The position numbers and the translations under genes are program-made. Below, piece by piece: positions 15,715 to 21,878 of a stretch of DNA of 64,000 bases (positions are counted from its first letter, which is position 1; every line of letters begins with the position of its first letter). A model generated the notes under the pieces. That model did not search any database and was not told the DNA's origin. It saw only the letters and a list, made by a program, of their open reading frames with translations. The stretch spans positions 186,001 to 250,000 of the forward strand of contig NZ_CADFDB010000011.1 in NCBI RefSeq assembly GCF_902832845.1, written 5' to 3'. Source of the DNA: Burkholderia metallica (GTDB lineage Bacteria; Pseudomonadota; Gammaproteobacteria; Burkholderiales; Burkholderiaceae).

Positions 15715-16222
15715 AGTCTTTTCGCTTTGCCGCCGCCCGGTTTGCCGAGCAGCCGTAGTGTGGAGATCGAATGTCTATCTCAAAACAGACACGCTCTTGC
15801 GAGGGTGTCAGCACGGCCGTCGCGAGGGCACACGCGGCGGTCGCGTTCGCGGCGACCGGTAAGACACGCATCGTTCCGGTGTCCGCAAAGCCGACATTCT
15901 AAGCGAGAGCGGAAAATCGCACAGCTAAGTTATCCCCTTCATTCTGTGGAAAATCGCTGGATAACCATAACTTTTCGTTGTGCCTGCAATGTCGAACGCC
16001 CGCCGAACCGTGCGTACGCGCATTTTCCTGTTCGGATCGGCCATCGGGCCGACTCCCCTGATCCACCGGGTTATCCCGTGCACAGATCGTTGACTTTGCA
16101 GCGGAATATCCAGTTATCCACAGATTTTCAGGACAACCGGCAACGATTTCGGCGCCGATCGGGGCTGCCGGTCGTTCAGCGAATCGCGACGCGGTCGAGC
16201 CCGTAATCTGCAAAACATTTTT
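15715..16222. other. 508-base intergenic region containing a DnaA-box cluster
   Basis: No supported gene. The left part is the upstream region of the MarR gene and the right part lies downstream of ybdK. The stretch 15930-16122 is rich in TTATCCACA-like 9-mers, described as a separate entry. A 104-residue open frame at 15899-16213 was judged to be chance. Confidence 0.6.
15930..16122. other. Cluster of DnaA-box-like sequences, possible part of a replication origin
   Basis: One perfect DnaA box TTATCCACA lies at 16114-16122. Near matches lie at 15930-15938 (TTATCCCCT), 15945-15953 (reverse strand, TTTTCCACA), 15956-15964 (reverse strand, TTATCCAGC) and 16071-16079 (TTATCCCGT). Five sites in under 200 bases is similar in density to known origins. 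A second cluster lies 3 kb to the right. Confidence 0.45.
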
Positions 16223-18567
<2,345 letters not shown>

Positions 18568-19240
18568 CGTGGTGACTTCTCCTTTGGAAGCAACCGCCAG
18601 CGACGCGGGGTCAAGCGTCAAAAAATGGATGCGCGCCGGCTGGGTATCGCCCCGAATGTGATTGTTGTGTTCGACGACGGCGGGACATGGGATCCGCCTT
18701 TTCCGCCACTCGGCGGAAAGTCGCTCAGGTTGCCGATCTGGATTGTCGGCCTGGTGTGTGAACGGACTGCGCAGTCTCGAAGATTCAGATTCGAAATCGT
18801 GCCGACCGTTCCATTGAAGCATGTCCGGCGCCAGGCCGGATGAACGCGAAGGAAACCGATTGTGCCACAGCTTTTTCGTTCCGGAACCGATTGAATCGAC
18901 TCGCGGCGCTGTGCGGCACCCCAGGTCTTTGGTTTCAAAGGTTTACTTGTATATATACGTAGTAGAAGTTAACAAAGGACCCACAGTTCTGTGGATAACT
19001 TCGGTTTTCGCTGATGGATCAATGCGTTGGCGAAACCATAACCGGATGCACAGGCTGTTTGCTCACAGTCGTTTGAGTTGAGCAACTTTTGGGCCGCGTC
19101 ACAGCTGTGCCGAGTTGCCCAGTTTACGTCCACTGTGATTGCACACGAAGTACGCGCGGATTCCGCGTGGTTATCCACAGCGTTGCGTGGATAACTTCGC
19201 GCGAAAAAGTCCGGAAACTGTGAGCGGCTCGGGCGAACGA
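18568..19240. other. 673-base intergenic region with DnaA boxes and an AT-rich stretch; candidate oriC
   Basis: No supported gene; a 72-residue frame at 18625-18843 has no recognisable features. An AT-rich block at 18926-18978 (about 70% A/T in an otherwise GC-rich region) is followed by a perfect DnaA box in reverse orientation at 18990-18998. A second perfect box lies at 19171-19179 and a one-mismatch reverse box at 19186-19194. The 13-mer GTGGATAACTTCG occurs twice (18991 and 19188). Kef is read leftward from here and mnmC ends at 19241. Confidence 0.5.
18990..19194. other. DnaA-box cluster beside an AT-rich element
   Basis: TTATCCACA occurs on the minus strand at 18990-18998 and on the plus strand at 19171-19179, and TTATCCACG on the minus strand at 19186-19194. 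The last two face each other 6 bases apart. The AT-rich stretch at 18926-18978 could act as a DNA unwinding element. Confidence 0.5.
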
Positions 19241-21211
19241 TCAGCCGGCCGGGCCGACGCGGCGTGCGCGCAGCGCGCGGATCAGGAAGCGTGCGGGGTC
19301 GACTGCATCGGCGAGCTCGCGCTCGAGCGGCCACGGTTCGCCTTCGAGTTGCGATGCGATCAGCTCGGCGCCGAGTGCGGCCCAGACGAGGCCGCGCGAG
19401 CCGAAACCGAACGCGCCGTAGAGTCCGGGCACGCGCGGCAGCTCGCGCGCCTGCGCACCGCTCAGCGCGCGCGCATTCGCGATGGCGCCCGCTTCGTCCG
19501 CGAGCGGGCCGATCAGCGGCAGGCGGTCGCCGACGACCCAGCGGAACGCGACGCGGCCTTCCAGTGTGTCGGGATCCGGCAGGTCGCGAAGCAGGCCCGG
19601 CAGCAGATGCCGCACGCGGTCGATGTTTTCGCGATGCCCGGCCGCGCGCAGCGCGGGATCGACGTCGTCGGGTTCGAACGTCGCGCCGATCAGCAGCGTG
19701 CCGTCGTCGAGCGGCACCGCGTAACCGTCGCCGATCGCCGGGCACGGCAGCGGTGCCGTGGTGCCGGGCGGCAGCAACGTCAGCTGGCCGCGCACCGGCT
19801 GCAGCGAGACATGCTGCAGCCCGGCCAGACGCGCGGCCTCGCCGGCATTCGCGAGTACGACGACGGGCGCGTCGGCCAGCGTGCGGCCCGCATCGTCGAG
19901 TGCGTGCCATGCGTCGCCCCGCCGTTCGAGTCGCGCCACGGTGGTGGACGCGAGCAGGCGCACGCGCTCGCCGGCCGCCGCGCATTGGGCCGCGCACAGG
20001 CCGGCCGGCCAGACGGCGCCGCCGTGCGGGAACAGCAGGCCGCCCTGCGCGACCGGCAGGTTCAGGTGTGCGCGCGCGGCATCGGCATCGAGCAGCGAGA
20101 CATAGTCCGACGGCGCGCCGAACGCGTCGAACGCGTCGCGCATCCGTGCGAAGTCGTCGGCCGATTCGGCGAGATGGATCATCCCGTGCGTGCTGCGCGC
20201 GAACGCATGGCCCGCGCGTTCGAGTGCGCGCCAGCGGGTCAGTGCGTGAAGAAAGCCGCGGCGCGTGAGCCGGCTCGCGATGTTGTCGTCGCGTGTCATC
20301 AGCGGATGGAAGACGCCGGCCGGATTGCCCGACGCGTCGCTCGCGATCCGGTCGTGCCGCTCGATCAGCGTGACCGCCCAGCCGCGCGCGGCCAGGCGTT
20401 CGACGACCGCGCAGCCGGCCAGGCCCGCGCCGATCACGATCGCGCGACGCTCGGCAACGGGCAGCGCGCTCGGCGGTTCGTGACGGCGCGTGCGCCAGCG
20501 CGGCGCGTATTCGCCGACGAGCATCGCGAACTTGCCGGCGAATCCGTCGCGCTTGCGATACGTGAAACCTGCATCGGTGAGCGCCTGTTTCACGGCGCCC
20601 GCACTCGAGTACGTCGCGAAGGTCGCGCGCTCGGCCGCGATGCGCGCGAGTGCGCGAAACACGTCGGGCGACCAGAGTTCCGGGTTCTTCGCCGGCGCGA
20701 AACCGTCCAGATAAAACGTATCGGCGCGCGCGACGAGTTTCGGCAGCAGCGCGAGCGCGTCGCCGAACGCAAGCGTGAGCACGACCCGGCCTTCGTCGAA
20801 TTCGAGTCGATGCACACCCGGCACGAGCGTCGGCCACGCATCGGCCAGCAGTCCTGCGTCCGCCGATATGGTTGTGTTCGCAACGATATGGGAAAGCGCG
20901 CGGCGCAGGTCGTCGCGCGAGAACGGATGCTTCTCGACCGACACGAAATGCAGCCGTTCGCAGCGCGCGGGGTCGTCGCGCCACGCGGCCCAGGTCGCGA
21001 GGAAGCTGGCGCCCACGCCGAAGCCCGTCTCGACGATCGTGAACGTGCGGCGGCCCTGCCAGCGCGCCGGCAACCCGTTGCCCGCGACGAACACGTAGTT
21101 CGCCTGAGCGAGCGCACCCGCGACGTTGTGATAGATGTCGCCGTACTGGGGCGAGACGAGCGTGCCGTCGTCGCGGATGGCGAGCGTGGCGGGAACGAGT
21201 CGGTCTGTCAT
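19241..21211 (-). CDS. mnmC: Bifunctional tRNA 5-methylaminomethyl-2-thiouridine synthesis protein MnmC
   Basis: 656 residues from ATG at 21211 (MTDRLVPATLAIRDDGTLVSPQYGDIYHN). It completes the mnm5s2U34 modification of tRNAs. The C-terminal FAD oxidase domain removes the carboxymethyl group and the N-terminal SAM-dependent domain methylates the resulting amine. The methyltransferase part has TIVETGFGVGASFLATWAAW and TFYLDGFAPAKNPELWS. The oxidase part begins with the dinucleotide-binding motif AIVIGAGLAGCAVVERLAARGW at about residue 255 and ends FGSRGLVWAALGAELIA. The full two-domain length is kept. Confidence 0.95.
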   Translation of the reverse strand: MTDRLVPATLAIRDDGTLVSPQYGDIYHNVAGALAQANYVFVAGNGLPARWQGRRTFTIVETGFGVGASFLATWAAWRDDPARCERLHFVSVEKHPFSRDDLRRALSHIVANTTISADAGLLADAWPTLVPGVHRLEFDEGRVVLTLAFGDALALLPKLVARADTFYLDGFAPAKNPELWSPDVFRALARIAAERATFATYSSAGAVKQALTDAGFTYRKRDGFAGKFAMLVGEYAPRWRTRRHEPPSALPVAERRAIVIGAGLAGCAVVERLAARGWAVTLIERHDRIASDASGNPAGVFHPLMTRDDNIASRLTRRGFLHALTRWRALERAGHAFARSTHGMIHLAESADDFARMRDAFDAFGAPSDYVSLLDADAARAHLNLPVAQGGLLFPHGGAVWPAGLCAAQCAAAGERVRLLASTTVARLERRGDAWHALDDAGRTLADAPVVVLANAGEAARLAGLQHVSLQPVRGQLTLLPPGTTAPLPCPAIGDGYAVPLDDGTLLIGATFEPDDVDPALRAAGHRENIDRVRHLLPGLLRDLPDPDTLEGRVAFRWVVGDRLPLIGPLADEAGAIANARALSGAQARELPRVPGLYGAFGFGSRGLVWAALGAELIASQLEGEPWPLERELADAVDPARFLIRALRARRVGPAG

Positions 21212-21599
21212 GCGAAACAAAAAACGTGGCAGCCAAGCCTGGCAAGGGATTGCGCGGGGTCGTCCGCCCGTCCGTTGGAAAACGGCAACGGGCCGGCGCC
21301 CGGGCGGACCGCGCTGCGTATCCTGTCCGGTTGGCGCAGATCAAAAACCGGGCAGTCGGCGATTCATTCGGCGAAATACCGATGAAAATCTTTGAAACCC
21401 TTGTCGTTATTGGGTTTGCGCTGCGCTATCATAGCAACGCCGTACCGCGGGGTGGCCGCCGGCTCACCGGAGGGCGCGTCGCGCGGGCCAGGATTCGGCG
21501 CTGTGTCGTCGGAGTCTGACTCTCGACGGCACGGTTCGCGCACGTATAATCGGCGCGTTCGCGCTGTTCGTGTCAACCTAACCTGATAAAGGAACCTTA
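21212..21599. other. Intergenic region upstream of hupA
   Basis: 388 bases between the divergent mnmC and hupA starts. It contains the hupA promoter candidate at 21523-21550 and must also hold the mnmC promoter, which was not identified. An A/T-richer patch lies near 21380-21435. Confidence 0.6.
21523..21550 (+). promoter_or_regulatory. Sigma-70 promoter candidate for hupA
   Basis: A perfect -10 hexamer TATAAT at 21545-21550 is preceded by TCGACG (4 of 6 matches to TTGACA) at 21523-21528 with a 16-base spacer. It lies 50 bases before the hupA start codon, fitting a strong housekeeping promoter. Confidence 0.6.
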
Positions 21600-21878
21600 A
21601 TGAACAAACAGGAACTGATCGACGCCGTCGCCGCCCAAACGGGCGCCAGCAAGGCTCAAACCGGCGAAACGCTGGACACGCTGCTCGAAGTCATCAAGAA
21701 GGCCGTGTCGAAGGGTGATGCGGTTCAGCTGATCGGCTTCGGCAGCTTCGGTTCGGGCAAGCGCGCAGCACGTACGGGCCGCAACCCGAAGACCGGCGAA
21801 ACCATCAAGATCCCGGCAGCCAAGACGGTCAAGTTCACGGCTGGCAAGGCGTTCAAGGACGCCGTCAACAAGCGTTAA
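21600..21878 (+). CDS. hupA: DNA-binding protein HU
   Basis: 92 residues, with a ribosome binding site AAAGGAACC just upstream. Small histone-like dimer that bends and compacts DNA. The family signature [45 protein letters not shown] is intact, starting with [20 protein letters not shown]. It is a single gene with its own promoter candidate and a strong terminator. Codon use is very GC-biased with frequent AAG for Lys, as expected for a highly expressed gene. Burkholderia carry more than one HU gene, so the choice of symbol is by convention. Confidence 0.95.

Follow-up and report, generated by a model that had tools for sequence, protein, structure and literature searches.

The prevailing view is that a bacterial chromosome has a single origin. 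In the E. coli oriC, an AT-rich unwinding element lies beside the R1 box, with an IHF site and further boxes in the same region. To our knowledge this origin has no counterpart of the modules B and C described below. Bipartite origins, such as those of B. subtilis and H. pylori, contain two DnaA box clusters with genes between them (accessible part of PMC4403523). The double origins recorded in DoriC, e.g. in Ralstonia pickettii 12D, are two origin-like regions on one chromosome; in the accessible part of the text they are single-species cases, 150, 291 or 882 kb apart or adjacent, and Burkholderia is absent there, whereas the pair reported here recurs across the genus (Gao 2015, PMC4403523). 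In the basal unwinding system a DnaA box is followed at a fixed distance by triplets, with a spacer that peaks at 10–13 nt (accessible part of PMC8287927).

The closest described system is the provisional oriC1 of B. cenocepacia J2315, which has DnaA boxes, an AT-rich block, an IHF site and parABS, as does the locus studied here; in contrast, no repeated module or paired AT element is described in the accessible part of that report (Du et al. 2016, PMC4948915). There, the c1 origin is considered typically chromosomal with an uncertain precise position, and a second box cluster is mentioned near nt 1 and the skew minimum. This second cluster would correspond to our modules A/B. In B. glumae, chromosome 1 was started 100 bp upstream of dnaA as the origin (PMC9335073, part available); according to the skew profiles presented below, a chromosome 1 numbered from dnaA in this way does not begin at the skew minimum. 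Among titles and abstract openings, with subscription papers mostly outside the search, no description of a paired origin in Burkholderia was found, nor anything joining Burkholderia to a bipartite origin and DnaA, or Paraburkholderia to oriC and a DnaA box. What is new here is the paired module: the kind of element is known, but not this arrangement of it, which is found again and again in the genus.

The window, i.e. the whole 64 kb stretch of DNA that was analysed, covers positions 186001-250000 of a 260,782-base contig (C11) in a genome of 37 contigs. The origin module A occupies the intergenic region 18568..19240 between a kef-like Na/H exchanger gene (17353..18567; PF00999, E 1.7e-28) and mnmC (19241..21220; PF05430 and PF01266), both on the minus strand, and the same two genes flank it in the relatives examined. 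A GCS2-family gene (ybdK-like; 16223..17338, minus strand; PF04107, E 2.8e-56) follows on one side and the HU gene (21600..21878, plus strand; PF00216, E 1.5e-34) on the other. The initial annotation had proposed this gap as the chromosome 1 origin, and the elements on which it relied are all present: two perfect DnaA boxes at 18990-18998 (minus) and 19171-19179 (plus), a one-mismatch box at 19186-19194 (minus), an AT-rich block announced at about 70% (18926-18978, 69.8% A/T) and a duplicated 13-mer, GTGGATAACTTCG, whose only two occurrences on the contig are at 18991 and 19187. Its remark on gene strands is borne out as well, since within the window a rough ORF caller places 11 of 16 genes on the minus strand left of A and 24 of 33 on the plus strand to the right. 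As it also said, dnaA is not adjacent and sits on another contig. On the regional scale, the skew test that it suggested came out in favor of the proposal, with a minimum at 2.2–3.2 kb from A, far from dnaA; modules B and C and the fixed geometry had been overlooked. According to the annotation, the HU gene of B. cenocepacia J2315 would carry one of the last chromosome 1 locus numbers. J2315 hupA is BCAL3530 in the accessible part of PMC3682984, which partly bears this out.

Module A is a rigid unit in which two DnaA boxes form an inverted pair and a third one accompanies the AT-rich element TTGTTAACTTCTACTACGTATATATAC. On the minus strand the order is box pair, AT-side box, TTATCCACAG, 13 nt and TTGTTAACTTCTACTACGTATATATAC. 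The pair, TTATCCACA (plus) and TTATCCACG (minus), spans 19171..19194 with box starts 15 nt apart, and 219 nt lie between its outer edge and the AT element start. The AT-side box (18990..18998, minus strand), 196 nt on from the outer box, adjoins the unwinding element and starts 23 nt ahead of TTGTTAACT, a placement like that of R1 in E. coli. The AT element core, TTGTTAACTTCTACTACGTAT (18955..18975, minus strand), carries DnaA-trio-like triplets and is matched by the pattern across genomes. It belongs to the AT-rich block 18926..18978, the presumed DNA unwinding element, whose weakest 30-mer (at 18942) ranks fourth among the separate low-stability places of the contig; of 260,753 overlapping windows, 43 are weaker. 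The sequence of A thus offers a putative unwinding element directly beside a box. Between the AT-side box and the pair, a putative IHF-like site recognised by eye, GATCAATGCGTTG (19017..19029, plus strand), differs at one position from WATCAANNNNTTR, the IHF consensus quoted in PMC3682984 (part available).

Eight DnaA boxes with at most one mismatch are present in the window against 2.16 expected, a number reached in 0 of 100 shuffles. Three of them cluster within 205 bp in A at conserved positions; these are the only boxes of this quality in the module, which is few for an oriC. With the E. coli oriC, A shares the AT-rich element and its adjoining, identically oriented R1-like box, the IHF-like site and the further boxes, and it differs by its fewer recognisable boxes and its gene setting. 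As in the basal unwinding system, A shows a box and then triplets at a fixed distance (CTN-NYA-CTA; CTT-CTA-CTA in A, three NTN), but its 21 nt spacer exceeds the 10–13 nt peak by about one helical turn and goes beyond the 16 nt within which the published search for that system expects at least three DnaA-trios (PMC8287927, accessible part). The middle triplet at C is TCA. Methylated CACAG and GTWWAC motifs have been reported at all origins of J2315 (PMC7364216, in the part available). In 341 bp of A (18900-19240), CACAG occurs 10 times against 0.30 expected, and three GTWWAC sites are present, giving six strand matches for 0.12 expected since each site of this palindrome is counted on both strands; GTTAAC moreover belongs to the AT-element pattern used to find the modules. 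Module C has nine CACAG and two GTWWAC sites.

The geometry of the module was compared over 193 distinct zero-mismatch occurrences, after removal of those with cut-off flanks and of copies identical over ~111 nt. In all 193, a DnaA box with at most two mismatches is located exactly 23 nt upstream (126 perfect, 61 with one mismatch, 6 with two). The inverted pair, defined as boxes 15 nt apart with at most three mismatches in 18, is found at 206–208 or 218–219 nt in 177 of 189, the four occurrences without 300 nt upstream being left out. Shuffled upstream sequence, preserving composition only, gave no pair, no perfect box and 10 boxes in 193 with one or two mismatches at any offset. When sorted by neighbour genes, the 193 comprise 93 A modules, 26 B modules and 74 others, which are labelled C when neither kef/mnmC nor ybdK/marR lies within 900 nt, a label that takes in a second kef-mnmC module (L111), a bin contig (L226) and a module with A-like spacing (L271). 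The best pair position is 218/219 nt in 88 of 93 A modules, and 206–208 nt in 23 of 26 B modules and 69 of 74 others; B and C thus mostly share one spacing class, 12 nt shorter than that of A. In a midpoint-rooted FastTree tree of 189 modules, grouping follows location with only five label changes. C modules are split between a group next to A and another next to B; the sequences are short and the supports moderate.

Module B (15930..16122, plus strand) lies in the gap next to that of A. It consists of a degenerate box pair (15930 and 15945, the latter on the minus strand) and a perfect box at 16114 (plus), with a spacing of 184 nt and no AT element, and it faces A across ybdK-kef, 2.9 kb away. 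In 17 Burkholderia genomes (our own, G008, G009, G010, G011, G012, G015, G018, G022, G024, G025, G029, G030, G035, G039, G051 and G061), all with modules above the pair threshold required for scoring B, which G014, G016, G026 and G049 are not among, the box and the pair are kept while at least 10 of the 18 fixed positions of the AT element are changed. By contrast, only 0–2 of the 18 are changed at B in two genomes of the same genus (G037, G041) and in G192, G093, G136, G099, G168, G069, G096 and G141 from other genera. In genomes with an AT element at B, A and B face each other ~3 kb apart. From this comparison B looks like the second half of a bipartite origin whose opening element has been lost in most of Burkholderia; the comparison shows the element to be missing from B, and its loss, as opposed to its never having been gained, is what we infer. 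Like the origins of B. subtilis and H. pylori, A and B are thus two DnaA box clusters with genes between them, but in some relatives both carry an AT element and face each other, dnaA is not between the clusters, and an extra module, C, lies 41–67 kb off (compared with the accessible part of PMC4403523).

Module C, the distant twin of A, is located at contig positions 252190-252440, 2.2 kb past the window end and 47 kb from A, with boxes at 252190, 252205, 252374 and 252440 around TTGTTAACTATCACTACGTATATATACG. The 13-mer of the AT element, TACGTATATATAC, has exactly two no-mismatch sites in the 7.55 Mb genome, one in A and the other in C (C11:252411-252423). When A and C are aligned between the boxes, the score is 73, against at most 61 in 300 shuffles. 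Both modules appear to be under similar constraint. Identities to our own sequence, which as the reference is left out, are 0.996 for the box, 0.961 for the pair and 0.989 for the AT core over 30 A modules, versus 0.762 for other nearby positions; the corresponding values over 16 C modules are 0.972, 0.979 and 0.982, versus 0.814. Conservation of the AT core is partly by construction, as modules were found by the AT-element pattern; that of the box is not, and background 9-mers as conserved as the box number 0 of 245 for A and 7 of 233 for C. A tRNA-Val (GAC) gene lies 0.3–4.4 kb from C in 11 of 13 Burkholderia C loci, L088 and L094 being those without it, and our own C also has one. In another genus, C loci are accompanied by tRNA-Lys (G161, G105, G154) or by no tRNA (G168). 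The neighbour genes of our own C were not found at the C loci of these four genomes or at L088 and L094. A mobile origin of C was considered and rejected: viral contigs gave no exact match to the core pattern, and modules A and C were unmatched in the plasmid collection. A 16S rRNA gene starts ~6 kb beyond C (L021:18566-20000), near the contig end, which places ribosomal RNA genes in the vicinity of this twin.

The pairing of A with a second element is common in the genus. The pattern TTGTTAACTNNYAYTAYRTWT, allowing one mismatch, is present in 62 of 62 Burkholderia genomes, versus none for the reversed pattern used as control. Two matches were obtained in 54 genomes, three in 3 (G017, G021, G034) and one in 5 (G014, G015, G026, G049, G051). 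In G051 a second copy is present but bears a one-base insertion, so that a single element is left in 4 of 62 (G014, G015, G026, G049), as judged with two patterns at up to one mismatch, which a diverged copy could escape. In 42 genomes (42 of the 54 with two matches), the two elements lie on one contig, 40.8–67.2 kb apart and in the same inverted orientation; among the other two-match genomes, they are 2.9 kb apart in G037 and G041 and on different contigs in 10.

We consider that A in the kef-mnmC gap, together with B, is the oriC of chromosome 1, and that C is a complete paralogous module which assists or regulates A without being the main start, with a probability of about 0.8. One argument is GC skew. 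The cumulative minimum of the contig falls at 16363, 249 bases from the box of B and 2.6 kb from the AT element of A. Regional profiles were built for our genome and 10 more Burkholderia genomes by joining the A-to-C interval with its flanks (20 kb on the left of A and no more than 25 kb on the right of C); on this regional rather than whole-replicon scale, all 11 profiles have their minimum at 2.2–3.2 kb from the A element, and a 500 kb profile of G035 places it at A/B as well. The rigid module geometry, the conserved boxes (0.96–1.00) and the kef and mnmC flanks point in the same direction, as do the weak AT element and the enrichment in CACAG and GTWWAC. So does the partition system: parB, parA and gidA are at contig positions 173631-178040, 27–31 kb left of A, with two matches to a parS pattern (176608 and 178564), which puts parABS 26–31 kb from A overall. 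Against this assignment stand the three boxes, the 21 nt to the triplets, the absence of a KOPS polarity switch at A, and the blindness of skew to A versus B, the minimum being so close to the box of B and 2.6 kb from A. The origin of chromosome 1 is narrowed to a 3 kb stretch, and most likely to one gap within it. Elsewhere on the contig, two perfect DnaA boxes 0.7 kb apart (158579 and 159316) are located ~46 kb left of A, outside the module.

By analogy with the E. coli and B. subtilis origins, DnaA would fill the box pair and the AT-side box of A, possibly helped by IHF-type bending between them, and would extend from the AT-side box onto one strand of the TTGTTAACTTCTACTACG element. Opening of TATATATAC by DnaA would then allow helicase loading and the departure of two forks. 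B could be a former second half of a bipartite origin that has kept its DnaA boxes, mostly without an unwinding element. C would most likely assist or regulate A; it could, for instance, compete for DnaA or serve as a weak back-up origin. A maintained origin twin would be either a simple, testable exception to the one-origin rule or a new kind of DnaA control site.

How C acts can be read in several ways. It may be a DnaA regulator in the manner of datA/DARS, an origin-like complex that titrates or resets DnaA, and we regard this as a plausible reading, if short of a probable one. An array of about six DnaA-box repeats is located at contig 254151-254803 (L021:14151-14803), 4.2–4.8 kb past the window and 1.7–2.4 kb beyond C: in these, TGTGGAYAWC is followed after ~20–25 nt by CGAAACGCTGTG and GGTGAG-like ends, and the array has a CTGTG repeat. 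Judged by its repeats, this array is a candidate DnaA titration array that would add to the effect of C; box clusters are found near C, at 0.7–3.5 kb, in several relatives too. The second element that was not found in 4 of 62 genomes suggests that C is dispensable, as a non-essential regulator could be, and skew bears no sign of firing at C. A titration site is not known to need an unwinding element. The AT core of C is nevertheless 0.982 identical across the 16 modules, a value partly due to the way these were searched, and this argues against the regulator reading.

C may instead be a second working origin, so that A and C would both fire, in the same or in different cells, and the stretch between them would be copied from either side. 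Chromosome 1 of most Burkholderia would then have two firing DnaA-driven origins, A and C, inverted and 41–67 kb apart, plus a disarmed B. In favor of this, C has the pair, box and AT element of A under similar constraint, the two inverted elements keep one orientation at 40.8–67.2 kb in 42 of 62 genomes, and C-type modules adjoin other genes in other genera. Skew speaks largely against it. The regional minimum is at C in none of the 11 profiles. Convergent forks between A and C would make the skew rise from A and fall towards C, which we reject since it is positive in the last sixth of the interval in 11 of 11; the fourth sixth is not positive in 11 of 11, a dip in mid-interval. On the right of C the skew is strong, but the box array and the 16S rRNA gene confound it. 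In G035, the A-C skew (+0.0147) is below the right-arm mean (+0.0265) but within the range of that arm, 14 of 78 windows being as low. The lone element in G014, G015, G026 and G049 also weighs against a second origin, and on balance we consider it doubtful that both modules fire. Chromosome c1 was reported to replicate both ways from the predicted origin region in 10-kb bins, with a marker frequency that gives ~33 kb per minute (Du et al. 2016, PMC4948915, part available). At this rate forks would cross the A-C interval in ~1.5 minutes and such bins may blur A and C, so the published marker frequency may not resolve one from the other. If A and C were both to fire, Burkholderia would provide a genus-wide case of a bacterial chromosome with more than one built-in origin.

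It is very unlikely that replication starts mainly at C, or in a region nearer dnaA, with A as a relic, although box density in Ori-finder might suggest this. Boxes are indeed more numerous near C (10 with at most one mismatch in 2.6 kb), and in 11 of 18 genomes C is on the stretch that separates A from dnaA. A search for dnaA in 18 other genomes succeeded in all 18, with distances from A or the A/B pair that range from ~41 kb (G161, if the contig is circular) to 585 kb (G055): ~68 kb in G024, 70 in G035, 78 in G033 and G061, 81–92 in G010, G012, G018 and G032, 94 in G011, 99 in G008, 110 in G030, ~114 in G158 and 236 in G009, and ~82–92 kb to the pair in G017, G021 and G034. A common but not required trait of oriC, an adjacent dnaA, is thus absent from A. 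KOPS-like sites, searched with the E. coli motif as in Du et al. and both few and common to related genomes, were pooled over 11 genomes, with plus/minus counts of 0/32 left of A, 4/36 between A and C, and 12/12 right of C. Between A and C they thus point as on the left arm (36 of 40), which would favor C. However, the skew switches at A/B and not at C, and in G035 the sites still point leftward over the 160 kb from C to 200 kb from A (1 plus, 5 minus), turning only beyond ~200 kb from A (12 plus, 3 minus). KOPS polarity switches at neither A nor C, and we rejected it as a marker of C because the G035 switch, ~200 kb right of A, marks neither module. That the boxes are ordinary DnaA-controlled promoter elements of kef and ybdK, whose starts adjoin A and B, is hardly credible given that the same module has unrelated neighbours at C, and different ones once more in other genera, and that the skew minimum is at A/B.

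At the family level, the pattern is present in 63 of 110 genomes, from 11 of 22 genera, versus 2 of 110 for the reversed control. At the order level only 5 of 200 genomes match, 3 of them from the family, which has 8 members among the 200. The remaining 2 of 192, with one one-mismatch match each, are taken as chance since the reversed control gives 10 of 200; a wider spread in the order outside the family, which would rest on these two single weak matches below the control, was therefore rejected. A search of named genomes returned at least 118 stretches, and 79 of the 80 listed carry the names Burkholderia, Paraburkholderia, Caballeronia, Trinickia, Robbsia and or Mycetohabitans. The other one listed is a contig of an Acidobacteriaceae bin (L226) with a C-type module and a HU match, probably a misbinned Burkholderiaceae contig. 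Four genomes (G079, G113, G139, G147) contain three AT elements apiece, separated by large and unequal distances, which indicates that in their genus the module is variable in copy number and spacing.
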